64,000 nucleotides of DNA from Synechococcus sp. CC9605. GTDB lineage: Bacteria; Cyanobacteriota; Cyanobacteriia; PCC-6307; Cyanobiaceae. Position 1 is the first letter of the stretch; each line of letters begins with the position of its first letter. Made by a program: the position numbers and the translations under genes. The stretch spans positions 1,922,001 to 1,986,000 of the forward strand of contig NC_007516.1 of assembly GCF_000012625.1 (NCBI RefSeq). Direction: 5' to 3'. This document shows, piece by piece, positions 30,132-63,003 of this stretch. The notes under the pieces are model-generated. The model made no database searches. It saw only the letters and a list, made by a program, of their open reading frames with translations, and was not told where the DNA came from.

Positions 30132-31079
30132 ATGGGCATCAGAGAGCGGCCAACCTACGCAGCCGGCGGAATGCAACAGTCAGGGCACCCCGCTCCAGCC
30201 CCGGTGAACGGCCCCTTCGGCTTCGTGGTGATCGACAAGCCCGCAGGCCTCACCTCCCATGCCTGCGTCAGCCGCCTGCGCCGCAGCTACGGCCTCAAAC
30301 GGGTGGGTCATGGCGGCACCCTTGATCCTGCCGTCACCGGAGTTCTCCCCATTGCCCTGGGACCGGCCACCCGACTGCTGCCCTACCTCCCAGGGGAGAA
30401 GACCTACACCGGGGTGATTCAACTGGGTCGGCGCACCAGCAGCGACGATCTGGAAGGAGAGCTGCTGGAGCAGCAGGCCTGGCCATCCTTCAGTGAAGCC
30501 GAGCTCAACAGCAGCCTGGAGGCGTTCCGGGGCGCGATTGAGCAGCATCCGCCGCAGGTCTCCGCCGTCCATGTCGATGGCGAACGGGCCCATGCCAAGG
30601 CCAGGCGCGGTGAAGCCATGGATCTGCCGCCACGGGCCGTCACCGTGCACCGGCTGGAGCTGTTGAATTGGGATGCAGCCCTGGGACAGCTGAGCATCGA
30701 GGTGCACTGTTCCGCCGGCACCTACATACGCTCGATCGCCCGGGATCTGGGGGACCGCATCGGCTGCGGAGGTTGTCTTGCTTCCCTGCGCCGCACCCAG
30801 GCCCTGGGGTTCCACGCGCACCAGGCCCATCCCCTGCCGGAGCGAGACGCTGTGCCGCCCGATCCCCTGTCGCCACTGTTGGCCCTGGGGGACCTGCCCC
30901 GGCGTGATCTCAGCGAAGCCGATCAGATCGACTGGCGCTGCGGCCGACGCATCGCCATGAATCCCGGTGCTGGAGAGGCGGTGGTGGTGTGCAACGCCGA
31001 TGGGAGCATGGCCGGCATCGGCCACCGCGAGAGCGGAGGTTTGCTGCGGCCCAAGGTGGTCTTCGATGCAGCAGGCTGA
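30132..31079 (+). CDS. truB: tRNA pseudouridine synthase B
   Basis: It makes pseudouridine 55 in the T-loop of tRNAs. The catalytic motif [20 protein letters not shown] holds the Asp, and [20 protein letters not shown] and [15 protein letters not shown] flank it. [15 protein letters not shown] is the later signature. The longest frame gives 315 residues; a Met at 30171 gives 302 and would clear the divergent methyltransferase promoter region. Confidence 0.95.
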
Positions 31080-31131
31080 AACCACCCTTCGCTCAGTACT
31101 CTCCGAGCGCATCCCGCACTGCCCTGACGCG

Positions 31132-31875
31132 ATGGCTGGCCACAGCAAATGGTCCCAGATCAAACGCACCAAGGCCGTCGTCGACGCCAAAAGGGGGGCG
31201 GTGTTCACCCGGCTGGGGCGGGAAATCATGGTGGCGGCCCGTGCCGGAGCCGATCCCGCTGGAAATTTTCAGTTGCGTACGGCCATCAGCAAAGCCCGCG
31301 CCGCTGGGGTTCCCGCCTCCAACATCGAGCGGGCCATCGCCAAGGGGTCAGGTCAGGCCGGTGATGGGGCCCAACTGGAGGACGTGCGCTACGAGGGCTA
31401 TGGCCCTGGCGGCATGGCGGTGCTGGTGGAGGCACTCACGGACAACCGCAACCGCACCGCGGCGGATCTGCGGCTTGCCTTCAGTAAGAACGGCGGAAAC
31501 CTGGGGGAAAACGGCTGCGTGGCCTATCTGTTTGAACACCGCAGCGAAGTGATCCTCAACGCCGGCCCCGACGATGAGGAACGGCTACTGGAAAGCCTCC
31601 TGGAGCTGGACGCTGATGGCTATGAACTCCTGGACGGGGCTGTGGTGGTGCACGGCCCGTTCGAGGCCTTGGAGAGCCTTCAGGACGGCTTGCGCCACGC
31701 AGACTGGAATGTGAGGGAGTGGGGCCATCACTGGTCCGCCCAGACGAGCGTTTCGGTGAATGATCCCGAGACCGCCCGCAGCTGCCTCAAGCTGCTGGAT
31801 GCCCTCGATGGGCTCGATGATGTGCGCAGCGTCAGCGCCAACCTGGATCTGGCCGACGAACTGGAGATCGATTGA
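31132..31875 (+). CDS. yebC: YebC/PmpR family regulatory or translation protein
   Basis: A 247-residue protein starting [20 protein letters not shown], then [17 protein letters not shown] and [20 protein letters not shown]. YebC-type proteins were described as DNA-binding regulators and more recently as helping ribosomes at difficult motifs. The C terminus is [14 protein letters not shown]. Its last 52 bp recur at 40060-40111, so the present 3' end may have been supplied by the island that follows. Confidence 0.95.
31824..31875. repeat. left direct repeat (attL candidate) in yebC 3' end
   Basis: The last 52 bp of yebC match 40060-40111 at 47 of 52 positions. The first 21 bp are identical, and the four of five mismatches I placed are at or near third codon positions. 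Both copies end in TGA and keep the same reading frame and orientation. This is the pattern left when an element integrates into the 3' end of a gene and restores it. Confidence 0.75.
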
Positions 31876-31931
31876 TGTCGTTACTTTTAAAGCCGAGTCT
31901 TTGCAAGCAATAGCTGGCGTAGGGCGCAGAA

Positions 31932-32048
31932 ATGCCCAAAGCTCAACTGGAATGGCTCAAAGGAGAAGCAGATGCAAGAGCAATGTCATCAAGGGAAGAG
32001 CGCAGACAACCCGCACAGCCACTCCAGCAGCGTCTTGAGAAACGTTGA
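31932..32048 (+). CDS. tiny hypothetical protein
   Basis: A 38-residue ORF, MPKAQLEWLKGEADARAMSS plus a basic tail. It is charged and helical. In 31876-32330 there is also a minus-strand frame with two hydrophobic stretches (for example IRIGLIATAVLDPIGLCCAS) but no usable start codon, probably a remnant. Neither is a firm call. Confidence 0.3.
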   Translation: MPKAQLEWLKGEADARAMSSREERRQPAQPLQQRLEKR

Positions 32049-32330
32049 GACCTCCGCCCTCAAACAGGGCAACCAAAACCCTTGCAACGCCACCAACTAA
32101 CCAAGGAGGCGCAACACAGGCCAATGGGATCAAGGACTGCTGTAGCGATCAGCCCAATTCGGATAGAGCCCTCAGTTGGGGGATCCGCGATGGCACCACC
32201 TGCAACGACGGTGATCAGAAAGACAAGATGCCTGATGAAACGAAACCTTCCCGCTATTGCCGCGCTGGCGCTAAGCAGGGGCTGACGACCTGGGCCATCG
32301 GCAGCTCGGAGACGATCAAGGTCTGGTGAT

Positions 32331-32654
32331 CTATTGAAATTTCACACCAGTGAGCAGCTCGCAATTGAGCTGGGAGGTTTCAAAAAGTTCCTGCCCAAAT
32401 GGTCTGACTTGTTTGAGATTGAGTTGCTCAGCAACCAAGACGGAAAACCTGGAAGCACTCAGGTCTCCATTCTTTCGGAGAAAGCACAGGTTGAGGATAT
32501 TTGAATCTCTGGCCAAGAATTCACGGATGCGTTCATTGGCTTTGTTCCTGGTGCACATTGCAATCACTTCGTCTGCAACACTTTCAGCTTTTGCCTCTGG
32601 TGTTGCTGCGCCGATGGCAAGAACAGCGACGGCGATGGAGATGAGTCGTTTCAT
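32331..32654 (-). CDS. small exported protein, unknown function
   Basis: A 107-residue protein starting MKRLISIAVAVLAIGAATPE, a signal peptide likely cut after AKA near residue 22. The mature part has three Cys (AMCTRNK, LNLCFLRK, LNCELL) and is largely helical. The function is unknown. The Met at 32654 is chosen because the upstream extension lacks coding character. Confidence 0.6.
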   Translation of the reverse strand: MKRLISIAVAVLAIGAATPEAKAESVADEVIAMCTRNKANERIREFLARDSNILNLCFLRKNGDLSASRFSVLVAEQLNLKQVRPFGQELFETSQLNCELLTGVKFQ

Positions 32655-32729
32655 GGCGCCAGCATCACCGTGATGAGTTGATTGCGCACCCCCCAATCAG
32701 GGGATTCTCAGATCGGATCAGACTGATCG

Positions 32730-33158
32730 ATGCAGCAGCTCATTTGGTCGCTGCCATCGCGTCATAGGAACGGCACTGCACCCCCAGCCGGGGTGATGGT
32801 GTCTTTGGAGAATCCACACTCCATCCAATGGCGTCATGACCATTGGGCGCTGATGACTGAACTGACTCCTTCTCTGACGATGCGGGGAGTCAGATCAGCG
32901 TTAAATCCTCTCAAGATCGCCTTATCACTCGTGTCGAGTCCAACAGAACTTCAACGTCTTGTGATATTGAATTACAAGAATGCCGATGGGGAAGAGCTAG
33001 TTGGGCTCGCTCTGGAGTTAGTAGAAGAATCTAATGGCGGAATTCAAGTACGGGTACTTAGGGATTCAAATTTAGTTAGTTGTGTATCGGTGGTTCCCTT
33101 AATTGAATGCAGAGTGGACGACTCGCAAGACTGCGACCGCTGTGACTCTGCTGAATAA
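32730..33158 (+). CDS. hypothetical protein
   Basis: An ORF of up to 142 residues. The last 90 (LKIALSLVSSPTELQRLVIL, then KNADGEELVGLALELVEE) look coding and end in a Cys-rich tail (DCDRCDSAE). Starts at 32730, GTG/ATG near 32796-32808 or 32862 are all possible. No family is recognised. In 33159-33453 I see only a 32-codon ORF at 33183 and no other supportable feature. Confidence 0.45.
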   Translation: MQQLIWSLPSRHRNGTAPPAGVMVSLENPHSIQWRHDHWALMTELTPSLTMRGVRSALNPLKIALSLVSSPTELQRLVILNYKNADGEELVGLALELVEESNGGIQVRVLRDSNLVSCVSVVPLIECRVDDSQDCDRCDSAE

Positions 33159-33453
33159 CTCTTTACAGCAGATAATCCAAATATGCTAAATTCTAACTAC
33201 CAGGATGTCTATTACAGAGAGGGTGAATATAATGGTGCACCAAAGTATCAAAATGTTCATGGAAATCTATTTATGCAGTGAGCAAAATATGCCTAGTAGA
33301 AGCAGAGTGAGGCACTAAAAAGATTTTGGACTTCAGGGGACAACTGAAAGAGGCTCTGAAGAAGCGGCAAGCCGTCAGTGATATTAAAATGAATTCCAAA
33401 TTCTTGTAATTCTTGATACAGGATTTGCCTGGCTTCATCAGCTATTATAAATT

Positions 33454-33582
33454 ATGGCTTTTTATCTTTTCTTCACTACCATCGCTTCCATTGGAGTAAT
33501 TTATCTCCTGATTTCATGCACCTTTAAAGATAGTAATCAGCAATTTCCAACTCCACCAATAAATTTCAACAATACTCCCTAA
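33454..33582 (+). CDS. small membrane protein
   Basis: A 42-residue ORF starting MAFYLFFTTIASIGVIYLLI, one membrane helix with SC at its end, then a polar tail rich in Asn and Pro. The Leu-Ile-Ser-Cys stretch is lipobox-like but sits after an unusually hydrophobic start. The function is unknown. 33583-33812 shows nothing I can support. Confidence 0.4.
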   Translation: MAFYLFFTTIASIGVIYLLISCTFKDSNQQFPTPPINFNNTP

Positions 33583-33812
33583 TATTAAACAGTGGACGAC
33601 TAACAATACTGCTACTGCTGTGACTAATCAGCAGCAATCACAACTTGAACAACATTGCTCTTCTCCGGCGTGACCATCAGCACAGGGCTGAGAGCAATAA
33701 ATCTTTCAATCTTTCTGAACGGCTTTTTCAGGGTAAACACTGCAGCTGCAGGGCTCACACGCGCATTTCTGGTTTGCGATTGGCATTGATTCGTCGATCA
33801 ACTTCCCTTTTC

Positions 33813-34052
33813 TTAGGACGAACAGACAACCAGTGCAACTCGCAACTGAGGGAGTTGAACTTCACCTGACAGGCGGGGCGGAACGTAGCTGTAGGTCCTG
33901 ATGGCTACCCACTGCGCATGCATGGTCGCCGTGTCAGGCTTGAACTGACAGAGCTTCTGCTGCAGCTCGGAATACAGCCACCCCTCACCACCAGCCTTTT
34001 CTGGCGCCTCGTGAAAGCTGCGGTCCTTGTAACGAAAATGTGAAATAGTCGT
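33813..34052 (-). pseudogene. DUF1651-like gene remnant lacking a start
   Basis: The minus strand reads GEGWLYSELQQKLCQFKPD, AQWVAIRTYSYVPPRLSGE, VQLPQLRVALVVCSS and stop. This resembles, from memory, the picocyanobacterial DUF1651-type pattern of a W(V)xxxTY...PPRL core. No start codon exists between the upstream TGA and the domain, and the C-terminal end looks altered. The overlapping longer frame at 33905-34285 lacks this character. Confidence 0.45.
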
Positions 34053-34202
34053 TCAAACTTTTGACTCGCGGTATGCACAGTGACGACGAAATAATTTGAT
34101 TCAATCCAAATTGATAACACATAAATTCCTAGACGGAATACGTCAGGCTTGGGAGGAGATGATTGACGAATCTGACAATAAAGTTCGCTGACTAAGACCT
34201 TC

Positions 34203-35519
34203 TCAAAAGCCTTCGCAGAAGTAAAGCCAGTCTTTGCGTACCTGTCTGGCATAGCACTGTGCAATCTGGTTGACAAATACTCCAAACTCTTTAGTTCTAT
34301 CGTGGGTGATGCGGTTTAGCGTTGCTTCAAACACATATGGATCTAGGGACCCGTTCAATTTCCGGGCCGCTTTTAAATGTTTTTTAGCCATTATTTCCGC
34401 CCACTGCTTTGCCATAGCTGAGTAAGCTTTTATTGTTGTCAGTTTGAAAGTGGGAAAGTCATTTTTGAATGGCGATCTCTCGCGCACCGAAAAGCAGACT
34501 CCATCAATACTGAGCCAACCGATATGGCAGTCTGGATATTGCGATAAAGCTCGATATGCTATTGCGTGGCGGTGAGCATGATTTTCGAAATTGTAGTTAT
34601 ATTCTTTTATTTCTTCCTCACTCAAATAACTAAATGCCGTTGGCTGCACTTGTTGCTTCACATCAAGGATAACATCATCGTAGGTGCTGTCAGTATTACC
34701 CCTTAATAACCCATAATAACGTTGTAGACCGAGAGAGCCTGTTCCAGCACTTTTCCTAACCGCTAGATCTAACACTTCATAGTGACCCTTGTAGTAGCTC
34801 AGAAATTCCTCAGAGACCGTATCAACATACCCTTTGAATGACTCCATCAACTTCCCATATAATTCTAAATCCTTATCTAAAGGAGTAAGCTTGCCTTTTA
34901 TGTTCTTGAATTGCCTTGTTTCGTTGGCTACAGTCCACTTATTAAGCATTCTGGCACGACTAAATTTCTTCTCAGTTTTAGAAAGAAACTTCATTAATGG
35001 CTTTCCGGTATTGCTCTTATTAAATGAGCTAGAGAATGAATCATCATTCTCAAATGTTGCAATGGTCTCCAAGTAGTGTACACTGAAAGTCTGCACGCAC
35101 TTTGAAATATCGCTTGTGGATAATTTTCCATTTTCTTGACAATCAAGTACCATGCTGATGGCAAATCTCCAAACATCATATTGGTAATCTGCTACCAATG
35201 AATCGTCGTAATCATCGAAGCCATATGAAACAACTTCGATATCATTGAGATAAGCTCCCATATTGTAAACGTGAGCATCTCCCTCGAGCCATGTCCTTGA
35301 AAACGCACTGCCTCCAAAGCGGTGGAGTTGCCAATTGCCAGCGAAATCAGACCAATAAATATGGTTGGATCCCCTGTAAAATGCATAAGGTGAGGCTTTC
35401 ATTTTTTTAAACTTTTCTTCTTTTGCCTTAGCAGAAATATGTTTATTGTGATACTCAATTGACTCGCATACCTTTCCTTTCCTATCATAGCTTCTTGATT
35501 CAAAAATTAAATTCTTCAT
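34203..35519 (-). CDS. DUF2252 family protein
   Basis: A 438-residue protein, intact in an otherwise decayed island. DUF2252 hallmarks are KMKASPYAFYRGSNHIYWSD, then TWLEGDAHVYNMGAYLND and YGFDDYDDSLVADYQYDVWR. These hold the Asp-x-His and Asp-rich residues expected of a kinase-like fold. LDLAVRKSAGTGSLGLQRYY is the usual central motif. The substrate and role are unknown. It has lower GC than its surroundings and no close gene partner; it is likely cargo of the element. Confidence 0.8.
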   Translation of the reverse strand: MKNLIFESRSYDRKGKVCESIEYHNKHISAKAKEEKFKKMKASPYAFYRGSNHIYWSDFAGNWQLHRFGGSAFSRTWLEGDAHVYNMGAYLNDIEVVSYGFDDYDDSLVADYQYDVWRFAISMVLDCQENGKLSTSDISKCVQTFSVHYLETIATFENDDSFSSSFNKSNTGKPLMKFLSKTEKKFSRARMLNKWTVANETRQFKNIKGKLTPLDKDLELYGKLMESFKGYVDTVSEEFLSYYKGHYEVLDLAVRKSAGTGSLGLQRYYGLLRGNTDSTYDDVILDVKQQVQPTAFSYLSEEEIKEYNYNFENHAHRHAIAYRALSQYPDCHIGWLSIDGVCFSVRERSPFKNDFPTFKLTTIKAYSAMAKQWAEIMAKKHLKAARKLNGSLDPYVFEATLNRITHDRTKEFGVFVNQIAQCYARQVRKDWLYFCEGF

Positions 35520-35904
35520 AGAGCAAGATTGGTGAAGGATGATAATGTCGGATCTTGCAAGGCGAACCCAGCTATAGCTACTATGGGCATTGTTAATGTT
35601 TTGAAAAGTGTAAATGCTTACCCTCTTTGACTGAGTATTAGCACTTAGTCGGGTTCGTTAAGCCTCTGCAGCTCCCAAGCAGCACCTCAGTCATTGGCAA
35701 CCATCAAAAAAGATATTGATGAAAATGGTGGATTGGTGACATCGCATGTCAAAGCTTGAATGCTCGTTGTCCAGCTACTGCAATGGCCTACATTTCTTGC
35801 TGCCATTTACTCCCTGTCTCAATAAATTAGCTTGATTTGATTCACTATCGGGAAGCCTTATGCGTATTGGCTGAAAGCTATACAAAACCCGTAATGGAAA
35901 AGCA
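35520..35904. other. non-coding interval in the island
   Basis: 385 bp without a supportable gene. It contains the promoter side of the DUF2252 gene (from 35520 rightwards on the minus strand). I see no repeat, tRNA or clear operator in it. Confidence 0.5.
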
Positions 35905-35981
35905 GGGAGCGCTGATGTTGTTGCTATCCATCTCCCAACAAAACCTCACACACACCCCCGTCAGCAATGGGCGGGGTTTTC
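35905..35981 (+). ncRNA. candidate Yfr1-like small RNA
   Basis: The layout is like cyanobacterial Yfr1. A 5' pair GGGAG (35905) and CTCCC (35932) is followed by an unpaired stretch AACCTCACACACAC. A terminator then pairs CCCCGTC with GGCGGGG and is followed by TTTT. Yfr1 carries the core ACTCCTCACACAC in the same place; here the core is close but not identical, and the 5' loop is longer. It could also be only a terminator. Confidence 0.35.
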
Positions 35982-35989
35982 ATTACCAT

Positions 35990-36315
35990 CTAACTGCCTT
36001 CCAGTAGCCTAGTGAGATGCGCCTGAAGCTTAAGAGCCCCAACTGCATTGCTGTGTTGCTTGCAGCGGATAATGGCTTCGATGATTTCATCCAGCAGGGC
36101 CAGACGCGTGCCAAGGAAATCAGAGAGTTCGACTGAGTAGTCAGCCTTAATGATCTCCCTTGCGCGTTGCAGGTACTTTTCGGCTTGTCGCTTTTGTACT
36201 CCCATTCCTCCGCGCAGAATCGCAGGATGTAGGAGTTTGTTTTGGCGGACGACAACAGTTTGACGACGGCATGAATCCGCCGGTCTATCTCTGCTTTATC
36301 TGATTTCTTCGCCAT
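35990..36315 (-). pseudogene. HTH-like small protein with a one-base frameshift
   Basis: One frame starts MAKKSDKAEIDRRIHAVVKL and runs to RFCAEEW. The natural continuation, GVQKRQAEKYLQRAREIIKA, then ADYSVELSDFLGTRLALLDE, is in the next frame (35990-36205). A single missing G in the run at about 36200-36206 would restore about 107 residues. The joined protein looks like a small DNA-binding protein of the terminase-small-subunit or homeodomain-like type. A sequencing error is possible. Confidence 0.55.
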
Positions 36316-36357
36316 AGCTTCATTCTTACAGAAAACAAATTAGTGGCGAGATATGCA

Positions 36358-36717
36358 TTAGATAAATCCGTCATTGGTTTCGATTGCAGGTGGTCCCGCT
36401 GCAATCAACTGTTTGATCTGAGCGCCGCTGAGGTTGCGACCGGTGGCGGCTTGGAGCTTGTTGGCGATCTGAACCGGAAGGTCGTTGGGGTTGCTGTCGA
36501 CGATTTGCCAGAAGACGTCGGTCTGCCCGTTGAGGGTGGGAATGCACCCCCTCTCCCTGTACGGGGGGTTTTCAGGCTCTGAGTTAACCCGGCAGTCAGG
36601 GACTAGGGCGATTGGGTTAACCGTTCTTTCAGTGCAACCCTCTTCGGCTAACTGTTCCAGAGGTAGTTCACCCTCGTTCATCCCTTGGTTAACCCTTGAA
36701 ACCTCGCGTGATGACAA
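36358..36717 (-). CDS. hypothetical protein downstream of replication gene
   Basis: Up to 119 residues. The C-terminal 50 (QTDVFWQIVDSNPNDLPVQI, then KLQAATGRNLSGAQIKQL) look like a compact helical domain, while the middle is low in complexity. It starts 5 bp after the stop of the DUF3854-AAA gene, so it is likely in the same transcript. No family is recognised. Confidence 0.5.
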   Translation of the reverse strand: MSSREVSRVNQGMNEGELPLEQLAEEGCTERTVNPIALVPDCRVNSEPENPPYRERGCIPTLNGQTDVFWQIVDSNPNDLPVQIANKLQAATGRNLSGAQIKQLIAAGPPAIETNDGFI

Positions 36718-36722
36718 GAGGG

Positions 36723-38651
36723 TTAACTCTTCATCCTTTTCAGCGCCTGACGGGGGAGAGGTTGCTGAAAAGCATCAGGTCGTCTGTCAACGGGCATCCA
36801 ATAAATAGTCGTTTTTCCCGTCTCTTTGATCGCCCAGCGGCGGATGATTGCGGACTTGGCCGCCATCGTTCTCAGGGTTCCGTTGACCTTGGTTCCATCG
36901 GCTGGAAGGGACAACGATTCACCGATCTGACGAAGGGTGCGCGGCTCACTCTGTTGCGCAAGCAAAGCCTCGAACCATTTCATCAGGGGCAGGTCTGGGC
37001 AGTCGTGCTGCTCCATCCCCAGAAGGTTCCATTCACAGTTGCCCTGGCTGCCGTCGTACCCCTCGCAGCGGGTTTTGCTATTGCGCAACACGATGGGGTC
37101 ACCATCACGGCATTTGCCGTCGTGAGCTTCAAGGGATGAGAGGTGAAGCTCATCTGGCCGACCCTCTTCGATGCGGCGCAGCGAGAACAGTCCCCAAACC
37201 GCTGCTTTGATGTCGCCGTTCCCTGCGTACTTGCCGCTATGGCGGCTGTTGTGGTGAATAACGACGGCCGATGCACCGGCGGAGGTGATCAGCTTGCGCA
37301 GGGGACGAACGACCTTCTTTCCGATGTCGGCGCAGTTCTCTTCAATGTCGAGGCTGGAGACCGCACGCAGCGGATCCACCATCACAAAGTCGTAGCCGGA
37401 CTCAATCAGTCGCGTGAGCTGTTGCCGGTGGCGGGGCTTTGCCAGATCAAATGATTGCCCTGCCTCCCAGCCTTCACCGCGCTTGCTCCAGTGATGAAAA
37501 CCAAAGGCTGTGAGTCGAGACGCCATGGTGCGCCCCTCCTCCAACTGAAAGATCAGCACCCGCATCTTGGGGACACTGAACCCCAGCCATTTGTCGCCAC
37601 GGATGAGCGCTCGGCAGAGGTCGTAGGTGAGGAGCGATTTACCCGCGCCGGAATCAGCAGCGATAACGATCAACTCACCACGAGGCAGGACATCAGGAAC
37701 AATCCATTTGCTATCGATGTCGGACTGTTCCAGGTCTTCGTCAGAGCAGAGAAAGCCTCGATCTTCATCACCGGCGCGGTTGTCTTCGACAAGGGCCAGT
37801 AGCTCGTCGTGTTTCCGCCCGATCTTTCTGGAAACACGCCGCAGCGTTGAATCCATCAGTTGGATGTCGGTGATTTTCGAGAGGTGCTCAATTAGCTCCT
37901 GCTCTTCCGTTGCGTCGTAATCACTTCTTAAATCCACTTCACTAGTCAGAAGTGGGGCAGGCAACGGCCAGCCGATCACTTTTGGAGATAACAGCCGTTC
38001 AATTAGCTGCGGCGCACCGTGCCGCACCAGGAAGTCATCAGCGCTGTTTTTGCGACCATCCGGCTCATTGGGCAGGGTGACCTTGTGGGGGAACGCTCCA
38101 CGCTTTCTGGCCCAGTTGGCAATGAACTTGGCGGCCTCAGATACTGATCGGTTGTCGGCGATGTCGGAGTCGAGCAGGACGATCACCTGCCGCCCCTTCA
38201 TCGGGATGGCCTTCAGCTCTGGGAGCACGCGAGTGTCGTTGTCTTCTCTCCAGACCCCGTCATCACCACGCCGATCGACGATGTTCCAAGTACCTGTCAG
38301 ACCGACGAAGCAATAACCAACAGGGATGTGCTTGTAACAGATATCGACCTTGACCGGTCCCTCGATCAGCACCAGCGGGATGGTGATGTCTTCGAGATAG
38401 CCGTCAGGCATTAACGGGCTGAAGTACGGGCGTGAACCACTCTCAAACGGTGCCTTGAACTTCGGTCTGCCGCTGGGGAACATTCGGCAGACGATGTAGT
38501 TCTCGCCCTTGCTGTTTTTGTACGGCTCCCCCTTGGGGTCGCAGTACAGGATGCAAAGGTCTTTGCCTTTGGAGGCGTAGCGCTCCTTCAGTCGCTCGGG
38601 GTTGGTCCCTCGCTCCTTCAGATAACGAAAGTGTTCGGAACTAAGACTCAT
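36723..38651 (-). CDS. DUF3854 / RepA-like AAA ATPase (replication protein)
   Basis: A 642-residue protein. The N-terminal part (about 1-210) is a DUF3854/Toprim-like domain: IPLVLIEGPVKVDICYKH, then MKGRQVIVLLDSDIADN. The C-terminal part (about 310-540) is a RecA/RepA-like ATPase with Walker A AADSGAGKSLLTYD, Walker B YDFVMVDPLRA and VVIHHNSRHSGKY. A winged-helix-like tail follows. Such primase-helicase-like proteins replicate phage satellites and plasmids. The gene is intact while its neighbours are broken. The ATG overlaps the stop of the excisionase remnant (ATGA). Confidence 0.8.
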   Translation of the reverse strand: MSLSSEHFRYLKERGTNPERLKERYASKGKDLCILYCDPKGEPYKNSKGENYIVCRMFPSGRPKFKAPFESGSRPYFSPLMPDGYLEDITIPLVLIEGPVKVDICYKHIPVGYCFVGLTGTWNIVDRRGDDGVWREDNDTRVLPELKAIPMKGRQVIVLLDSDIADNRSVSEAAKFIANWARKRGAFPHKVTLPNEPDGRKNSADDFLVRHGAPQLIERLLSPKVIGWPLPAPLLTSEVDLRSDYDATEEQELIEHLSKITDIQLMDSTLRRVSRKIGRKHDELLALVEDNRAGDEDRGFLCSDEDLEQSDIDSKWIVPDVLPRGELIVIAADSGAGKSLLTYDLCRALIRGDKWLGFSVPKMRVLIFQLEEGRTMASRLTAFGFHHWSKRGEGWEAGQSFDLAKPRHRQQLTRLIESGYDFVMVDPLRAVSSLDIEENCADIGKKVVRPLRKLITSAGASAVVIHHNSRHSGKYAGNGDIKAAVWGLFSLRRIEEGRPDELHLSSLEAHDGKCRDGDPIVLRNSKTRCEGYDGSQGNCEWNLLGMEQHDCPDLPLMKWFEALLAQQSEPRTLRQIGESLSLPADGTKVNGTLRTMAAKSAIIRRWAIKETGKTTIYWMPVDRRPDAFQQPLPRQALKRMKS

Positions 38652-38887
38652 TCCTTAGCTCCACTTGATGGGCGTAAAGGCAACGCACGACGCGCTCTGA
38701 TCGCGTCTTCGATTGCCGAGACATTCCAACGAGTTGGGCTCTAAGGAGTTGCTCCTTGCTTGAAGTGAATGCCCTCCTCTAAGAGACCGTCGTGTTTCCA
38801 GCGATGCAGGGTGCTACGGCTCAGGCCGGTTGCCCGTTAGGCACGGCCAGTCGCCATCCACTCCTCGACAGGGGATTGGGTGGGCAT
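38648..38887 (-). pseudogene. excisionase-like HTH gene with two in-frame stops
   Basis: The frame from ATG 38887 reads MPTQSPVEEWMATGRA, TAA (38837-38839), RATGLSRSTLHRWKHDGLLE, EGIHFKQGATP, TAG (38741-38743), SPTRWNVSAIEDAIRARRAL, and TGA at 38648. It is a MerR/excisionase-type HTH as found next to integrases in picocyanobacterial islands. Both stops fall inside clearly coding sequence. It was translationally coupled to the replication gene by an ATGA overlap. Confidence 0.7.
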
Positions 38888-38902
38888 ATCAGGCTGCGGG
38901 CT

Positions 38903-38977
38903 TCAGTCCCGCTCAGGCCATCCGTATTGATCAACGATCAGCTGCTGCACACGCGCAATCGTACGCGTTAGTTTCAT
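38903..38977 (-). CDS. tiny ORF between two broken genes
   Basis: A 24-codon ORF, MKLTRTIARVQQLIVDQYGW plus four residues, placed 3 bp after the previous stop. It is weakly supported, by spacing only. Confidence 0.2.
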   Translation of the reverse strand: MKLTRTIARVQQLIVDQYGWPERD

Positions 38978-38980
38978 CCG

Positions 38981-39277
38981 TTAATTGCCTGCGATGGTCT
39001 CAGCAATCTGCTGGCGATAAATGGCGGTCACTTGAGGGGCCACCTTCTCCATCTCCAACAAATGCGATTCCGAAGGAACGCGAACAGGGATCTACACCTC
39101 AGGGGTGACGCATGAATTACGCCAGTCCCATGCCATGTCCAGCAACCACTGCTGACTAACGCCCTTAGGAAGCCGACCAATAATCAGTTCTAAGGCGTCA
39201 ACAGGGAGGGTCGCAGGACCTTGCCACCCCTCGGGAGGTGCTGGCTTTTTTGGAGGAGAGATCAGCTGCAAAGCCAA
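38981..39277 (-). pseudogene. small island gene with an in-frame TAG
   Basis: ATG 39277 reads MALQLISPPKKPAPPEGWQG, LELIIGRLPKGVSQQWLLDM, NSCVTPEV, then TAG (39092-39094), then IPVRVPSESHLLEMEKVAPQ, VTAIYRQQIAETIAGN and TAA. Both sides look coding, so this is probably one gene of about 98 codons cut by an amber codon. The 61-residue first half might still be made. The function is unknown. Confidence 0.45.
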
Positions 39278-39408
39278 TCGAATCTCAACGAATGGTGTTC
39301 GTGCTTCCGGGGCAGGGATCGCCTGCGAGCCTTTGCATTGAGTCCAGCTTAACTACCCCATTTAATGCTGCCATGGCCTACCTGAACCCCTTACCACTAC
39401 AGGCAGTG

Positions 39409-39923
39409 TCACCGGGTAGTTACTCGACTCGATAGGGATGCGGTGTTCCGCGCCGCCACAGCAGCAGCGACCGCCGCGGCCACGGATTCGTCATCGCTCC
39501 ATCAGCCGTAATGCTTGAGGTGAGTCTGAGGGTCATGGCCCATCAACTTACTCAGCGTCCGGTGATCGAGGCCCATTCCGGTACGGCGGAAGGTGTACCC
39601 ATGACGGCAGCTGTAAACCGTCAAATGGCCCTGGCCCGCAGCTGAATCAGCTCAGCTGCTCTTGCCAGAGTCAAGCCTTGACCACCTTCGGCCTCCGGCG
39701 CGATGGCTATCGCCAGCCGTTCGACTACAGCCAACAATTTTGGCCCGGATGACCGTTTCCAGGGAATTCGAACCGTGGCGCTGCTACGGCTGTTGTCACT
39801 CCAACGGCGTGTGACCTGCGTAGCGCCCAAACCCTTTTGACGCAGGCTCCAACCCTGCCCATGGGTGTACTTAATCAGACGGCGGAGATTCTTCTCCCAG
39901 TTGACGGCCATGGCAGAAATCAA
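39409..39923 (-). pseudogene. tyrosine integrase remnant (internal deletion, nonsense)
   Basis: The first part (39621-39923) encodes an N-terminal core-binding-like region: NWEKNLRRLIKYTHGQGWSL, VTRRWSDNSRSSATVRIPWK. The second part (39409-39628), in another frame, encodes a catalytic C terminus: CRHGYTFRRTGMGLDHRTLS, KLMGHDPQTHLKHYG, with the His/Arg, His and Tyr of tyrosine recombinases. A TGA follows directly at 39502, but the tail WSDDESVAAAVAAAVAARN continues in frame. Most of the catalytic domain is missing, so the enzyme must be inactive. Confidence 0.8.
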
Positions 39924-40059
39924 GGCGAAATGGCGGGCGCAGAATTGGGCAAAGATGCGCCTAGACGGGATATTTACCCGCAGACTTCAATGAGCCCAAA
40001 AGCCCTCTGACACAGGGATTTATCCAGCTTTAGCAGGCTTCCAAGAGATGTCATGAATG

Positions 40060-40111
40060 GCGCAGCGTCAGCGCCAACCTCGATCTCTCCGACGAACTGG
40101 AGCTCGACTGA
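40060..40111. repeat. right direct repeat (attR candidate), yebC 3'-end copy
   Basis: It encodes [16 protein letters not shown] and a stop, against [16 protein letters not shown] in yebC. No other part of yebC is present. It lies 137 bp from the start of the integrase remnant. Downstream sequence returns to core genes. Confidence 0.75.
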
Positions 40112-40217
40112 CGCCTCCTTGAAGTTTGTCGTCAGCAAATCCGCACCAAAGCTTGAGGCCCTGAGCCCCGATCAACCCCAGCGCTAGGCAGAGGGCATCC
40201 CTTCTGGAGGATTGCCC

Positions 40218-40388
40218 ATGTCCATGAAACAGCTGGAAACGTTCATGTCGCGGGTGCAAAGCAACGACTCGATCCGCGATGAGGTGCAACGCTGCGGCAA
40301 GGACAACTCCTGTCTGGTCAAGGTCGGCGCCAAACACGGCCATAAGTTTTCCCCCGCTCACCTGAGCCGCTGGCAAAGGGAACACTGA
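40218..40388 (+). CDS. Nif11-like peptide
   Basis: A 56-residue protein, too short for usual ORF calling, starting MSMKQLETFMSRVQSNDSIR. The pattern QLETFMSRVQSND, then KVGAKHGHKFSPAHL fits the Nif11-like family, common in marine Synechococcus, where some members are leaders of lanthipeptides and most are orphans. There is no double-Gly leader end or Cys-rich core, so it is probably not a lanthipeptide precursor. A GGAGG stands 8 bp upstream of the ATG. Confidence 0.7.
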   Translation: MSMKQLETFMSRVQSNDSIRDEVQRCGKDNSCLVKVGAKHGHKFSPAHLSRWQREH

Positions 40389-40415
40389 ACACCGAGGAGA
40401 CCGGCGGCCGCCCCC

Positions 40416-40679
40416 TCAGGGAGTCTCGGTCGCCTGGTCAGCCTCGCCATCGGGTTGCTGACGAATCATCTGCGCCAGCATCTCCAACTTGGCGTTTTCC
40501 GATTCAGAGGCCCGGGTGGCCATCCAGGCACTGGCCGCCTTCTGCTGGGCCAACTGCTGCACCAACGCCAGGGCCGTCTCGCGCAACTGCTCAAGGTCCT
40601 GACAGTCCTGAATAAAGCGCGTCCAGCGTTCCGCCTCAAAACTCTGCTCAAGGCGCCGTTCCACGGGATCGATGCTCAT
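40416..40679 (-). CDS. small helical hypothetical protein
   Basis: An 87-residue helical protein starting MSIDPVERRLEQSFEAERWT, then LVQQLAQQKAASAWMATRAS. It has no membrane segment. It looks like a conserved picocyanobacterial gene, but I cannot name a family. It follows nagB by 19 bp on the same strand. Confidence 0.6.
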   Translation of the reverse strand: MSIDPVERRLEQSFEAERWTRFIQDCQDLEQLRETALALVQQLAQQKAASAWMATRASESENAKLEMLAQMIRQQPDGEADQATETP

Positions 40680-40698
40680 CGCCGCTGCTCTCGGCTGT

Positions 40699-41466
40699 TC
40701 AAGCTAAAGCCGCTGCATCGCACCAGAGCCAGAAATTGGGATGGGTCAGCAGCCAACTGGCAGGCAGCCCAGGGTCTGGCTCTTTCAAGGCCAACAAGCG
40801 CTGGAGGATGCCGGCCTTGGCGGCGCCGGTCACCACCAGATGAATCTCAGCAGCCTCGAGGATCTCCCAGAGGCCCAGGGTGATGGCCCGCTGGGGAACA
40901 GCTTCAACGCAACCATCGAAGAGCACCGCGTTCTGCTGCCGGGTCGCAGAGGTCAGCTCCACCTCATGGCAGTGCTGATCAGGAGGACAGGGCGGCTCGT
41001 TGAAACCCACATGACCATTGCTGCCGAGCCCCAGAAGCTGCAAACCGATGCCTCCGCAACGGTTGAGCTGCTGGCCGTAACGCCGCGCAGCAGCCGCACC
41101 GTCAGCAGCGGTGCTGTCGGGAAGATGCACCGCTGAAGCGGGCAGGCCCAACGGTGCAGCGAGGTGATGGGTCATGTAGGCCCGGTAGCCGCGGGGGTCG
41201 TCCGCCGAAAGTCCGAGGTATTCGTCCAGGTTGAAACTGCACCATCGGGCGCGCAGGGACTCCAGCTCATCGGCAGACCACGACAGCAGCCGTTCCACCA
41301 GGGTGCGATACAGCGGCTCCATCGTCCGTCCTGTGGCCAGTCCCAAAGGCTTCAGCGGATCAGGCCCCTGCCAACCGCGCAGATGACACTCCAGATGGGC
41401 CGCCAGCACAGCACAGAGATCCGTGTCACTGGAATGGCGTTGCAGATGACAGGGAAACCGTGCCAA
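40699..41466 (-). CDS. nagB: glucosamine-6-phosphate deaminase family protein
   Basis: A 255-residue sugar-phosphate isomerase/deaminase. LGLATGRTMEPLYRTLVERL is the phosphate loop, WCSFNLDEYLGLSADDPRGY holds the catalytic Asp, and LLGLGSNGHVGFNEPP holds the catalytic His. It would convert glucosamine-6-phosphate to fructose-6-phosphate and ammonia. The 6-phosphogluconolactonase family shares the fold, but NLDEY and GSNGHVGFNEP favour NagB. It overlaps the upstream SpoIID-like gene by 41 bp. Confidence 0.85.
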   Translation of the reverse strand: MARFPCHLQRHSSDTDLCAVLAAHLECHLRGWQGPDPLKPLGLATGRTMEPLYRTLVERLLSWSADELESLRARWCSFNLDEYLGLSADDPRGYRAYMTHHLAAPLGLPASAVHLPDSTAADGAAAARRYGQQLNRCGGIGLQLLGLGSNGHVGFNEPPCPPDQHCHEVELTSATRQQNAVLFDGCVEAVPQRAITLGLWEILEAAEIHLVVTGAAKAGILQRLLALKEPDPGLPASWLLTHPNFWLWCDAAALA

Positions 41467-42835
41467 GGGGCGAAACCGGCATGTCTCTCCAGAGTGGCTT
41501 TGTTGGGGGCTTCAGCGCCAGCGATGGGTCATGGTGCGGCCGGTAGGGAACGACCTCAGCCCCGCGGTAGTAGTGCTGAAGAATCGAGCGGAAGTGGGCC
41601 CCCTGCTCCGCCAGGCCGTGGGCTCCCCACTGGCTCATGCCAACGCCATGGCCATAGCCCTGGCCCTTCACCAGCAGCTGAAGGCCGCCGGCGGACCAAC
41701 GACGCACCGCCGTCTTGCTGACCAGCACCGGCGGAGGGGCCACCAACAGGGGGGGCCGTGCTCCCCTCTGACGAGCCACCGATGACGTGATCCGATCGAT
41801 GCGGGAGCCCGGGCGGGCGGTTGCAGTCACCCGTCGCACTTGAAGCTCCACGGGAGACCGCTGCCGCCCCGTCACCATCTCAAAGTTCACCAGCGTGCTT
41901 TTGAGACCCAACCGTTTGCGCAGCTGACTGCCGCTGAGCACCAGCGATCCGCGGGGGCCGCGCACGCGGGCCTGGCGCACGCGACCGCTGCCGGAACGAC
42001 TCAGCACCTCAACGGCCTGGAGCCCACCGGTTTCGGGCAGCCGTTGACGCAGCCCGGCAGGATCAAACCATTGTTCCCAGCGGTGCACCGGGCTGTGCTG
42101 GTCGTGGTCGGGGACGCTGACCAGATAGGGATGCTGGCGGCGCCAGACCATCCCGCTCGCCTCGGTCACCCCGCCAGAACTGCTGTGAAAAACGGCATCG
42201 ATCAGGCGACCACCGTGCACGAGCACCAGCGAACGGGTGCTCGCCACCGCCTTGCGTGTGCTCGGGGTTTCCGACTCCACTCCGCGATACACCTGACTCG
42301 CCACCGTGGCCTTCACATCCCAGGCACCACCGCGGCTGAGTTGTTTCAATGCATAGGTGCGGGCCGCCACAGCCTGGGCCTGCAAGGCAGCCAGGGGCCA
42401 GCGGTGAGGCATTTCGCTGCCGACAACACTGTTGAGATAGGTCTCAACGCCAAGGCTGTTGATCACCCGCAAGCGCCCGCCTCGGCTGCTGATGCGCAGC
42501 ACACCGCGGTAGCGACGCTCCCCAAGCCAGATGCCCCGTGGATCGTCGTTCTGCACCGTCACCAGGGTGCTGGTGGCCAGCCGCATCGATCGGCCATCCA
42601 CAGTGGCGCTCAGGCGGGTTCCTTGAAGGCTGAGCTGCAGCCGCTGCGGCCGTCGCTCTCCGCCGGGGAGTCCCTGCACCCGCAGCGGCTGTGCACCATC
42701 GGAACGCAGGCTGACCCGGTTGTTCTCCAGCAGCAGCACGCGCATCTGCGGCTCGCGGCCGCGGGCCAGCGCAGCCGGTGATGGAGCGATCACAGCGACG
42801 AGCACCAGCCCGATGGCAACGGAAGCGCGGCGCAC
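41426..42835 (-). CDS. SpoIID/LytB domain protein, exported
   Basis: About 469 residues. The SpoIID domain is plain: VETYLNSVVGSEMPHRWPLA, ALQAQAVAARTYALKQLSRG, then HSSSGGVTEASGMVW and KGQGYGHGVGMSQWGAHGLA. In Bacillus SpoIID cleaves stripped glycan strands, and cyanobacterial relatives may act on peptidoglycan. A GTG at 42835 gives a clean signal peptide (VRRASVAIGLVLVAVIAPSP, cut near ALA), which I prefer to the ATG at 42913. It diverges from rnz. Confidence 0.85.
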   Translation of the reverse strand: MRRASVAIGLVLVAVIAPSPAALARGREPQMRVLLLENNRVSLRSDGAQPLRVQGLPGGERRPQRLQLSLQGTRLSATVDGRSMRLATSTLVTVQNDDPRGIWLGERRYRGVLRISSRGGRLRVINSLGVETYLNSVVGSEMPHRWPLAALQAQAVAARTYALKQLSRGGAWDVKATVASQVYRGVESETPSTRKAVASTRSLVLVHGGRLIDAVFHSSSGGVTEASGMVWRRQHPYLVSVPDHDQHSPVHRWEQWFDPAGLRQRLPETGGLQAVEVLSRSGSGRVRQARVRGPRGSLVLSGSQLRKRLGLKSTLVNFEMVTGRQRSPVELQVRRVTATARPGSRIDRITSSVARQRGARPPLLVAPPPVLVSKTAVRRWSAGGLQLLVKGQGYGHGVGMSQWGAHGLAEQGAHFRSILQHYYRGAEVVPYRPHHDPSLALKPPTKPLWRDMPVSPLGTVSLSSATPFQ

Positions 42836-58968: not shown

Positions 58969-59646
58969 GATCAGATTATTAAAACGGTGTGATCGAACTG
59001 GCATAAGGCATCTCTCACAACACAGACAGATCCACCAAAACCCTCAAGACCCTACAAATAACCTGGCAACCTGCAAACCAGTCACGGTACCCCTGCCGGA
59101 AAGAAGGCAAAGCACATTCCAGCGCTGTCAATTTTTATTAATTCAAATAATAAATCGAGAAGTCATCCTGGCCAATAATAATCTCACCCCTCCTCCGAAA
59201 CACCATTAACAGCACACAAACTCTGAAGCCTCAGCAGCAATTTTTAACCACGCAATAATAAAACACTATAAAAAAGATTCTTGCTCAAAGTGCGGCCTGA
59301 AATCCCATGAACTGATCTTACCAATAACCCGGCCATCGGCGAACAATAACACACCAACAAGAATATAGAAAAGCACTATAAACTTACTCCAGATCAGCCA
59401 CCAAATCGAACACTAGGCCCCAGCTTTCTCACAAAATGCTTATCAAAAGCAGTAAATCAAAGCCAACGCACAATCACAACCTCCACACGACCAATCAACC
59501 AGGACACGGTTTAAAATATGAATTCCATATTCACATTAAAGGCTAAAAACAAGTCGCAGGAACAGACGGTGATCTGACACTCACACAAATAGGAGAACGA
59601 CAAAGACGGAGCCAATGCTAAAGTCACCTAGAATTGATGGAGTGCA
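58969..59646. other. AT-rich non-coding interval
   Basis: About 680 bp with stops in every frame and a sharp drop in GC relative to secG. I see no repeat, tRNA or recognisable operator. It probably holds the promoter of the sulfotransferase-like gene and marks the left edge of an inserted segment. Confidence 0.5.
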
Positions 59647-60816
59647 GTGAAAAAAACCAAACTTTTCCTGCACATTGGCCACGGAAAAACAGGAACTTCT
59701 GCGATTCAGTCAGCACTGGCAATTGCCTCAGAGGAGCTAGCCAAACGAGGCATCAGTTATCCCATCCAGCCATCTCTGCGAGATCGAGCTTCTCGGCTTG
59801 AAATCACATCTGGCAATTGGCAGCCGAACCCCGAGATAAGCTTGAGCGATCAATTGCTAGAGATCGCAAAAAAGAATCAAAACAACTCAAAAATAATTTT
59901 AAGCTCGGAATCACTTTTTTGGCTCATTCCAGATTTAATTCAAAGAAAAAGTAGCTGGGAAAATTTCATTGATTTGCACATCATCCTTGCAGTAAGAGAT
60001 GTCGACGAGATGCTTTCCTCTGAGTACCAACAACGCGTAAAACGACATGGAGATTCTATGCCGCTAGAGCAATTCATAAGAGCAAGGTTTTTCATCTCGT
60101 CACATCACGCCAAGGCGGCCGAAATTATCGACCTGATGTCTCAATCGAGCATCGAAAATACGATCATCAATTACTCAGCTCACAAACATGATATTACGCA
60201 GCAGGTCTTTAAATCAATAGGAGCAGAAGAGCTCTATCCTGCAGACAATATAAACGGAGCGATTATTAATAGAAGCCTCAGCAAGAAAGAACTTGAGACT
60301 TTAATCACCATCAATGCGCTTTTTTACGGGAAATTCCCATTGATTAGCACAAGAATTTCAGATGCATTGATTAAAAATCAACCCAAGCTTAAAGCCCAGA
60401 AATGTAAAATCACTCAGCAACAGCTCAAGAAAGTCTACGACAAAAATAATATATACCTTCAAACCATTAATTCACGCCTCGAACCAAACGAAAAGTTGAC
60501 CCTGCCCTCAAGTTTCTGCCATGAAAGTGCAGATCCACTGGCACCAGAAGAAGCCGAGAAAATCCGCATCGAAGAATCCATATCTATGGATCTTATTGGA
60601 GACACACTCCAACAATTTTTTGCCGAAAAGTCTCAAAAAAAACTCTCCAATGACACTGTAGATGCGATTATTAAATTAAGCCAATCCGGGAAAGTCTCTA
60701 AAACGACAGAGGTTGAGTTGCTAGAGGTCGCCAAAGAAAACCGGCCGCAAGGACAGAAACTGACCAAACTCCTAGAACGCGCAAGGAAACAACTTTCAAA
60801 CAATCAGAAGAATTAA
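59647..60816 (+). CDS. sulfotransferase-like protein
   Basis: A 389-residue protein whose start KLFLHIGHGKTGTSAIQ is a PAPS-binding P-loop of the sulfotransferase type. A second site typical for the 3' phosphate is near ILAVRDVDEMLSSEYQQRVK, and RISYPIQ-type strands fill the fold. It would sulfate a glycan or other acceptor, but the acceptor is unknown. The start is GTG with GGAG about 7 bp before it. AT-rich codon use differs from the flanking core genes, so it is probably acquired. Confidence 0.7.
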   Translation: MKKTKLFLHIGHGKTGTSAIQSALAIASEELAKRGISYPIQPSLRDRASRLEITSGNWQPNPEISLSDQLLEIAKKNQNNSKIILSSESLFWLIPDLIQRKSSWENFIDLHIILAVRDVDEMLSSEYQQRVKRHGDSMPLEQFIRARFFISSHHAKAAEIIDLMSQSSIENTIINYSAHKHDITQQVFKSIGAEELYPADNINGAIINRSLSKKELETLITINALFYGKFPLISTRISDALIKNQPKLKAQKCKITQQQLKKVYDKNNIYLQTINSRLEPNEKLTLPSSFCHESADPLAPEEAEKIRIEESISMDLIGDTLQQFFAEKSQKKLSNDTVDAIIKLSQSGKVSKTTEVELLEVAKENRPQGQKLTKLLERARKQLSNNQKN

Positions 60817-61054
60817 AATAATGTCAATACATCCAAATAAACTTTTCAACCCAAGACTCATACACAGAAGCCAAAATACTAAAGAAATTTAAAGCAAAAA
60901 TCTCTCAGCAAAGTACAAGCACAATTATTTAATCTAAATTCAAAACCAACAACATTAAACTTACATTGATACCATAAACGTTTTGAACAACACAAGCATG
61001 AGCAGGCTGACGAAGAGAAACCATGTATAGTCGTTGGATGAAGAGAGGAACACA

Positions 61055-62452
61055 GTGAATAAAAATTTGAGTTCTAAAAAACCAATAAAGTACAAATTTC
61101 ATATTCCTTCTAAAAAGCTTCCCAGCTCTCTTGCTCAAAAGATCTGTAGTCCACTATGGAAAAATATAATTCATTCAATTGAAACCGGCAACGTTGAAAC
61201 AATTCAAGCATTAGTCAAATCAATTGACAAGAAGCAGGAAGCAATTTACTTACCTCATCCATTCCTAGAAAATTTAGATACTTTTGTTACTAAAAATATC
61301 CGGCAAGGCATGTGTAACTTTATTTTCTTTAGCGACTCAAACAACCAAAATCAATGGATCCTATGCCAATGCACATCATTTGTTGATGCAATCTTTACAG
61401 AGTCATATTCAGGCAAACATAAGTCTTCTGTTAACGACGATGTAATTTTAAATGCAATCAAAAGACTTTTCAATGGCAAGAATAAGATAAGCTCGAGAAG
61501 GTATGGCACGAAAAAGGCAACATTTTCCGGCTACCTCCTCGATCAAAAAAGACCATACCATCACTTCTACGATCAACTTAAATGGCTTGTCTGGCTAGAG
61601 ACTGACAAGCCAATCATTAGCAACAACTCTTTTTTCATCCCTAGACATTACAAGAAGCTCTCAGTAACCCAAAAAAAACAGCCCACATTTTCCCTCTTTC
61701 CATTGGTCATCGGCTCGAATCAGTTGAAAATGAAGCTTGATCAATATTCCGAAAAAATGGAGAAAGTTGTCTACCTAGACAGTTCCAAAGGCTGGTACAA
61801 CAACATCATATGGAATCGATTGAATCAAGTATTCAACCAAATCAGAAAAGTATTTAATAAAAGCAATACCCTCACTCTTTGGTTTGGTATTTCTGGGCAG
61901 AAAAGGATATGGATCGAACAAGAAGACTTTCTCCCCGCTTTTGTACAACAACTAACGCCTTGGTTTGATTCGTTTGTGTTTATGGTTGATGGTTTTACCG
62001 AATACGAGAATTCAAATCATGCTCGCCTGAGTGGAAGCAAAGCAACCCCAGTCAATCAAGATCTTGAAGTTGTCACTTCGATTAGGCAAAAATTATTACC
62101 TTTTCCCAATGTGTCGGTCGTAAGCCTGGTGGGACAAACGTACCGAGAGAAAATACAACGCTGTCAAGATGTTGATTTCTTTATTGCCAATGCGGGCGCC
62201 GGCCAACTTGTTCCACATCGCTTCTGCAAAAAACCAGGTATTTTGCACTCCAATGAAAAACATTGCGTTTTTCCAACAGGAATTAACAACACTACCGTCA
62301 AAATAGTCGATAAATCTCTGGTCAAGGACGTAGGCAATTTATTTGCAAAAGGGACATCAAACAAAAATCTGGGTGCCGGACTTATTAGCTATAGTATTAA
62401 GACAGAAATTGTTATTAACATGGTCACAGACATGCTAGATCTCGACGATTAA
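61055..62452 (+). CDS. unrecognised protein, possible glycosyltransferase
   Basis: A 465-residue, basic, AT-rich gene with no clear family. The C-terminal third (CQDVDFFIANAGAGQLVPHR, then CKKPGILHSNEKHCVFPTG) resembles the nucleotide-sugar-binding end of GT61/DUF563-type glycosyltransferases, but the similarity is weak. A GTG at 61055 is preceded by GAGAGG at good distance; a TTG at 61034 would add seven residues. Its neighbour is the sulfotransferase-like gene, so a joint role in surface glycan synthesis is inferred. Confidence 0.55.
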   Translation: MNKNLSSKKPIKYKFHIPSKKLPSSLAQKICSPLWKNIIHSIETGNVETIQALVKSIDKKQEAIYLPHPFLENLDTFVTKNIRQGMCNFIFFSDSNNQNQWILCQCTSFVDAIFTESYSGKHKSSVNDDVILNAIKRLFNGKNKISSRRYGTKKATFSGYLLDQKRPYHHFYDQLKWLVWLETDKPIISNNSFFIPRHYKKLSVTQKKQPTFSLFPLVIGSNQLKMKLDQYSEKMEKVVYLDSSKGWYNNIIWNRLNQVFNQIRKVFNKSNTLTLWFGISGQKRIWIEQEDFLPAFVQQLTPWFDSFVFMVDGFTEYENSNHARLSGSKATPVNQDLEVVTSIRQKLLPFPNVSVVSLVGQTYREKIQRCQDVDFFIANAGAGQLVPHRFCKKPGILHSNEKHCVFPTGINNTTVKIVDKSLVKDVGNLFAKGTSNKNLGAGLISYSIKTEIVINMVTDMLDLDD

Positions 62453-62511
62453 GCCATCTTGCCAGTCAACAAGCAAGCATTCAAGACTTTCTTCTGAATG
62501 CATTTATTAGG

Positions 62512-62889
62512 CTATGGGGCCTGCAAGCCTGATTTAAAAAAGGCAAGTTCCTTGTGAACGCGATCCAACTCATACAACGTTTTGGTCTCCTTTTTTTCAA
62601 GAATCTCAACGCGCTTCAACAGATCTTCCAACAACTTGTTTTGAAGAGACTCAACCTGAACCTGCCTTTTCTGCACCCCTTTTGAGGGAACTCCTCCTGA
62701 ATCAACTGCCGAAAGAATTCTTCCATCCGTTTCGACGTACAACCGGGCAAGACGCTCCAAGACTTTGGAATAGGCCTTGTCTTGCTCTCGACAAAGGTCC
62801 TTGAAACGCTGCAGCGTCTCAGGGGCAAACTGAGCAGCAAAAGCTCCGGGTCGCTGGGGCATTTGTCCCGACTCGACAATACTAAACAA
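62512..62889 (-). CDS. hypothetical coiled-coil protein, RHH-like start
   Basis: Up to 125 residues. The N-terminal part APETLQRFKDLCREQDKAYS, KVLERLARLYVETDG looks like a small helical DNA-binding-type module of ribbon-helix-helix kind. A long coiled coil follows (QNKLLEDLLKRVEILEKKET). The Met nine codons in (MPQRPGAFAAQF) may be the true start. The function is unknown. Confidence 0.5.
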   Translation of the reverse strand: MFSIVESGQMPQRPGAFAAQFAPETLQRFKDLCREQDKAYSKVLERLARLYVETDGRILSAVDSGGVPSKGVQKRQVQVESLQNKLLEDLLKRVEILEKKETKTLYELDRVHKELAFFKSGLQAP

Positions 62890-63003
62890 TACATCAGCCT
62901 GAGCACTCCTGAACCCTCATAGATTCATGGACTGCAGCCGAGAGCAAACTCCGCAAAGCACATGTCTTGAAAACCCTAGACATCACAAGACGGTCCAGGC
63001 AAT

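Follow-up and report, generated by a model that had tools for sequence, protein, structure and literature searches.

A probable phage satellite, now decaying, in the 3' end of yebC of Synechococcus sp. CC9605

An 8.2-kb element at the 3' end of yebC

The window, that is, the whole stretch of 64,000 nucleotides of Synechococcus sp. CC9605 analysed here, contains two 52-bp repeats of the 3' end of yebC, which enclose 8.2 kb of DNA. Between them lie, from right to left, integrase remnants, a small ORF, an excisionase-like gene, the replication gene rep, the severed tail of rep, a gene that most likely encodes a small terminase (TerS) and a DUF2252 gene. The features, with their positions in the window, are the following.

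31132..31875, plus strand: yebC, host gene present in 32 of 34 genus genomes; its 3' end is the integration site
31824..31875, no strand assigned: left attachment repeat of 52 bp, the copy of the yebC 3' end brought in by the element; it shares 90% identity with the right repeat
34203..35519, minus strand: DUF2252 gene, 438 aa, open, low G+C (Pfam E 1e-61)
35990..36315, minus strand: candidate TerS gene, 108 codons with a one-base frameshift, otherwise stop-free; family phrog_34910
36358..36540, minus strand: C-terminal tail cut off from rep and lying in a different frame; 59–61% identity over 56–57 aa to 759-aa homologues
36723..38651, minus strand: rep, DUF3854 (Toprim-like) plus AAA_25/RepA-type helicase; 642 codons open, 3' end frameshifted
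38651..38863, minus strand: excisionase-like (HTH) remnant interrupted by two in-frame stops; 57 aa align to L014:10519-10761 at 40% identity
38981..39277, minus strand: remnant of a small ORF, interrupted by one in-frame stop
39490..39642, minus strand: C-terminal integrase remnant, 46% identity over 54 aa to residues 363–416 of the RCC307 integrase
39687..39908, minus strand: N-terminal integrase remnant, 45% identity over 74 aa to residues 17–82 of the RCC307 integrase
40060..40111, no strand assigned: right attachment repeat, displaced original 3' end of yebC, contiguous with the flank in empty-site relatives

The host gene, which we take to be yebC from its membership of the YebC family, was compared with 29 other yebC loci fetched from 32 matches in other genomes. 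Nine of the 29 loci have an uninterrupted site at 84.6–96.1% identity and three more at 67–73%, and alignment with these relatives identifies the right repeat as the original end of the gene and the left repeat as the copy that arrived with the element. Several other genomes hold different DNA at the same site. In G216 a broken N-terminal integrase remnant (42% over 62 aa) lies at yebC by the right end; tblastn searches of six other yebC regions (L051–L056) turned up no open relative of the integrase, excisionase or TerS. Rfam revealed no RNA gene within positions 31000–41500, and the sole tRNA found in the 64-kb window is located at 49387. The 3' end of yebC is now mapped as a protein-gene integration site, and the literature matches listed by our search contain no mention of yebC. 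Islands in CC9605 have been predicted, according to the accessible portion of PMC2441476, and the region of the element may already be on that island list. Elsewhere in the window, a short ORF with a Nif11 domain (40212–40388, plus strand; Pfam E 1e-6) lies just right of the element, and the G+C content falls to 37–45% with strong skew at 59000–63000, giving this stretch a foreign look.

The integrase has been gutted, with two surviving stretches that match a 443-aa homologue and lie in different frames; the best relative of the N-terminal remnant is 51–57% identical. The integrases of related elements match phrog_1/phrog_216 in PHROGs and, weakly, the Pfam family Phage_integrase, with one exceeding the cut-off; the RCC307 integrase has no Pfam match and owes its label to PHROGs alone. 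The stop of the excisionase-like gene overlaps the start of rep. The small ORF at 39277–38981 has no homologue in the relatives by tblastn and is therefore doubtful as a gene. The sequence-only reading had counted the integrase, the excisionase and two small genes as broken; these lesions are confirmed, the two small genes being this ORF and the gene after rep. The DUF2252 gene, with a G+C content of ~41% against ~62% around it, is probable cargo of the element; it is found in seven of the 34 genus genomes, CC9605 included, and its nearest relative, in G273, is 85% identical.

The rep gene and its 3' end

Pfam recognizes two domains in the rep product, DUF3854 at residues 86–213 (E 5e-17) and AAA_25 at residues 306–469 (E 2e-26), and chance cannot explain a 642-codon frame with two such domains. 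Residues 335, 425 and 466 mark a Walker A motif, a Walker B-like motif and an HHN motif, respectively; E97, D161 and D163, which we take to be the motifs typical of Toprim domains, are kept in the window copy. A profile built from four rep homologues matches the RSF1010 RepA helicase (PDB 1G8Y, E 3e-4). The predicted structure of the rep product, with a mean pLDDT of 41, was left out of the analysis.

Matches to rep at E 1e-20 or better occur in 12 of 400 family genomes, CC9605 included, and three full-length homologues of 735, 759 and 759 aa were found outside this genome. The DUF3854 half of rep is 62–69% identical to homologues and the helicase half 45–47%, whereas the helicase halves of the homologues at loci L014 and L015 are 83% identical to each other. 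The helicase half of rep would thus appear to be either fast-evolving or taken from an unsampled donor, and the difference in divergence between the two halves confounds a count of private substitutions in rep. No relative of rep closer than 42% was found. Repeated scans of viral contigs returned no relatives; genome contigs returned none with a single sequence as query and three with an alignment, and phages and plasmids, among the matches listed, reach 24–33% identity over one domain. A search with the AAA_25 family is uninformative on rep, as it matches 192 of 196 genomes, many of these matches probably being DnaB- or RadA-like housekeeping proteins.

The gene had initially been described as encoding an intact replication protein. 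The open 642-codon frame, both domains and the Walker motifs are indeed present, but the gene is not whole. Residues ~700–755 of both 759-aa homologues match window positions 36540–36370 with 59–61% identity, past the 642-codon stop and in another frame. As the counterpart of the tail lies out of frame downstream, the 3' end of rep is frameshifted, and the last dozen or so residues of the window ORF seem to be out-of-frame. The RCC307 Rep (735 aa) is without the C-terminal tail, and loss of the tail therefore need not abolish Rep. In some elements the tail might be a separate protein, a reading with which the 130-aa ORF between rep and TerS at locus L094 may be compared. Inspection of the 3' end of rep by eye revealed no canonical slippery heptamer that would suggest programmed frameshifting; the one-base frameshifts in this region could be sequencing errors.

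Truncated relatives, which the earlier reading would have counted against retention if seen in sister strains, do exist as open frames of 221 aa (G071) and 300 aa (G301), although in other species. In G071 the open 221-aa frame is the first part of a split rep, with the tail match (44% over 48 aa) ~11 kb off, just before TerS. The intervening ~11 kb (L017, L092) shows on inspection by eye genes of the Nif11-type peptide and porin kinds, together with long internal repetition.

The candidate small terminase and the nature of the element

Adjacent terminase genes usually run small then large. In cyanophage MED4-117, the phrog_34910 gene (E 4e-72) overlaps the start of the large terminase gene by 4 bp, and the same 4-bp overlap is found in genome G163 (phrog_34910 E 1e-22); the second gene of MED4-117 is a large terminase (TerL) according to both Pfam and PHROGs, and G163 has the same gene pair. 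Because phrog_34910 lies directly before the large terminase in these two genomes, it is most likely TerS, although PHROGs annotates it as of unknown function. MED4-117 is described as a dwarf myovirus in the section of PMC3861242 consulted. The window gene is 83% identical at the nucleotide level to an open homologue over 372 bp, or 86% over ~340 bp in another comparison, and the genes of its relatives match phrog_34910 with E 3e-13 and 1e-10. The same gene lies directly downstream of rep in the window and in all three full-length relatives. By synteny and family, the window gene after rep is most likely a small terminase.

The AlphaFold model of the putative TerS consists of an HTH followed by a long helical hairpin (pLDDT 91). 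In a fold search, the small terminase 4xvn ranks first with a weak E of 0.54; a second fold comparison gave Z 5.4 for 6ejq and 5.2 for 4xvn, not above unrelated entries, and viral models named terminase small subunit (E 0.27–0.68) rank behind unnamed or DNA-binding proteins. A TerS profile yielded no TerS match in the PDB at E 10. Viral contigs scanned with one close TerS contained no relative, and tblastn against phages found no match for the TerS of L015 and six records for that of RCC307, five of which represent one phage type. Adjacent to the gene, a block with a terminator-like inverted repeat was noted by eye at 35840–36000; parts of it recur at 71–90% identity in several loci, and two of the recurrences lie elsewhere in the CC9605 genome.

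The presence of TerS without TerL, together with an integrase, an excisionase and a replication gene, points to a phage satellite. The element is small, retains an integrase remnant, attachment repeats and its own replication gene, and has TerS, as assigned by synteny, but neither TerL nor virion genes; no structural protein was matched when ten ORFs from the region were compared with Pfam and ten with PHROGs. According to PMC10803314, terS is one of the genes that characterize other families of satellites. We consider it probable, with good confidence, that the 8.2 kb are a phage satellite in the 3' end of yebC that is now decaying, with rep damaged too and its core open mainly because the insertion is recent. 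The gene originally flagged, rep, is the ordinary replication gene of this decaying satellite.

In its active form, the tyrosine-type integrase would insert a circle at yebC and supply a replacement 3' end, and the excisionase-type protein would favour excision. Rep, with its Toprim-like primase domain and RepA/DnaB-type helicase, would replicate the excised circle, an activity predicted from its domains. The element's TerS would then steer the large terminase of a presumed helper phage onto satellite DNA for packaging, with DUF2252 riding along as cargo. In CC9605 the element is very probably immobile.

A sibling in RCC307 (L014/L129) occupies 10.4 kb between 48-bp repeats at tRNA-Val and has open genes for an integrase of 443 aa, TerS of 107 aa, Rep of 735 aa and an excisionase-like protein of 80 aa. 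It shares with the window element the integrase type, the HTH excisionase, the DUF3854-AAA_25 Rep (49% identity), a phrog_34910 TerS and attachment repeats, and differs in its open genes, its tRNA-Val site, a Rep without the tail and other cargo. A second element in the CC9605 genome itself (L019, G000:C1:2380000-2397000) has an open 447-aa integrase, an excisionase-like gene and a replication gene of the DUF3854-D5 type that contains a single in-frame TAA; within this genome, phrog_34910 is confined to the window element. Window stretches 32747–33145 and 33591–33786 are 76–79% identical to L019:11040-11448 and L019:11416-11611, with shorter related copies elsewhere in L019; these stretches common to both elements may be shared cargo or a repeat family.

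An integrated plasmid or integrative mobilizable element (IME) with a CyRepA-like replication gene, unconnected with phages, would explain the presence of DUF3854, which in the plasmid Rep proteins CyRepA1/CyRepA2 forms the N-terminal domain (PMC10079941). The helicase half of rep is nonetheless of the AAA_25/RepA type rather than DEXDc, TerS follows rep directly in the window and its full-length relatives, and no relaxase or Mob appeared among the matches of the ten ORFs scanned per library; we regard this origin as improbable. Even less credit is due to the view that the element is what is left of a full prophage after deletion of its structural genes. TerS and integrase also occur in prophages, and G163 has a TerS-TerL pair, but the open RCC307 sibling carries the same gene set in 10.4 kb between its attachment repeats, and tblastn with one query TerL detected TerL in one of 32 loci and none in the other 31, the loci being neither all complete nor all proven satellites. 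A prophage origin is thus very improbable, and a phage satellite remains the preferred identity of the element.

Genes of phrog_34910 were found in 92 of the 400 family genomes, and 20 neighbourhoods were fetched, hand-picked among the stronger matches and mostly from less fragmented genomes. In four of these (L099, L101, L102 and L103) TerS is 81–84% identical to that of the window over 325–372 bp, with one at 86% in another comparison, while the replication genes are DUF3854-D5, VapE, D5 plus DNA polymerase A, and AAA_25 alone; the distances from replication gene to TerS in the four are 7, 223, 467 and 4 bp. Similarly close TerS genes (80–82%) are present at L069 and L080, and further replication genes beside TerS among the 20 include VapE (L095, L098, L105) and AAA_25 (L094). 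RNA genes near the 20 loci include tRNA-Pro, tRNA-Thr, tRNA-Ala and tmRNA. Insertion sites were mapped for the window and RCC307 elements. The five elements with nearly the same TerS apparently occupy different sites, the window's being the mapped one of the five. It is quite conceivable, if a little short of an even prospect, that satellites in marine Synechococcus form a large and modular class linked by a single exchangeable TerS, with packaging specificity rather than replication in common. If true, packaging specificity would bind these satellites to common helper phages, perhaps dwarf cyanomyoviruses like MED4-117. As a likely TerS, phrog_34910 can serve as a marker in searches for satellites and related prophages within a family whose phototrophs are globally abundant.

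Recent decay, retention of rep and known systems

Two explanations had been offered for an open rep amid broken genes, and the first, recent decay, agrees with the data: the site is empty in the closest relative searched, and the private changes of TerS comprise 13 synonymous and 6 nonsynonymous substitutions (at 78 and 246 sites, respectively), indicative of constraint until shortly before the gene broke. The closest empty-site relative is 96.1% identical over 1,549 bp, with a dS of 0.068 in two flanking genes. Applying half of this dS to the rep core, on the assumption that the insertion followed that split, gives a neutral expectation of 2.25 nonsense changes and a probability of 0.105 that none occurs; this probability rises to 0.33–0.57 if neutrality held for half or a quarter of that period. 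As neutral escape has a chance of ~10%, the open frame argues only weakly for retention, and there is little surprise in its persistence while the element decays. Comparison of rep with five homologues (L014–L018) gave pS values of 0.71–0.79, and with synonymous sites thus saturated, dN/dS yields no verdict on recent selection.

The second explanation, that rep is kept for a reason such as interference with phage, for instance by titrating phage replication factors or by firing a phage-like origin on infection, fared less well. Both catalytic domains are open with their motifs, and the five disabling lesions counted all lie outside the core of 627 codons (P 0.011, or 0.027 counting one per gene), a result that, on a small count made by hand, mildly favours longer constraint on rep. 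Yet rep itself carries the 3' frameshift, its core is compatible with neutrality (P ~0.10), and the upstream excisionase gene that overlaps its start contains stop codons. The matches of rep to PADLOC models are weak and at the level of the P-loop (AbiO, E 3e-4; Nhi, 8e-4; 46 residues). Moreover, the pattern is inverted in the second element of this genome, whose integrase is open and whose rep has a stop; which gene is struck therefore looks like luck. Selection for rep is accordingly a quite improbable account; retention is unproved and unlikely, and the core still appears open mainly through the recency of the insertion.

Among known systems, RSF1010 RepA resembles the helicase half of rep in the profile match described above; unlike rep, it has, to our knowledge, no fused Toprim-like domain. 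CyRepA1/CyRepA2 share the N-terminal DUF3854 with rep and differ in their C-terminal half, which is DEXDc in the portion of PMC10079941 consulted; the AAA_25 domain and RepA profile where DEXDc would be expected set rep apart from a CyRepA-type Rep. The PICMI satellites of Vibrionaceae are likewise small, with an excision and replication core and no capsid genes, and the passages of PMC10803314 examined place their insertion next to fis and report that PICMI115 is without a terS homologue; the terS remnant and the yebC site set the CC9605 element outside this family. Tycheposons and VEIMEs, as mentioned in passages of PMC10803314, PMC11389934, PMC10872708 and PMC10187409, are also marine, integrase-bearing and satellite-like and carry cargo. 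Tycheposons have an XerD-type tyrosine recombinase, with which the integrase remnant of the CC9605 element and the phrog_1/phrog_216 integrases of its relatives may be compared. They insert at particular tRNA genes, according to the passage of PMC10872708 concerned, whereas the element described here sits in a protein gene, yebC, and is not classed as a tycheposon.
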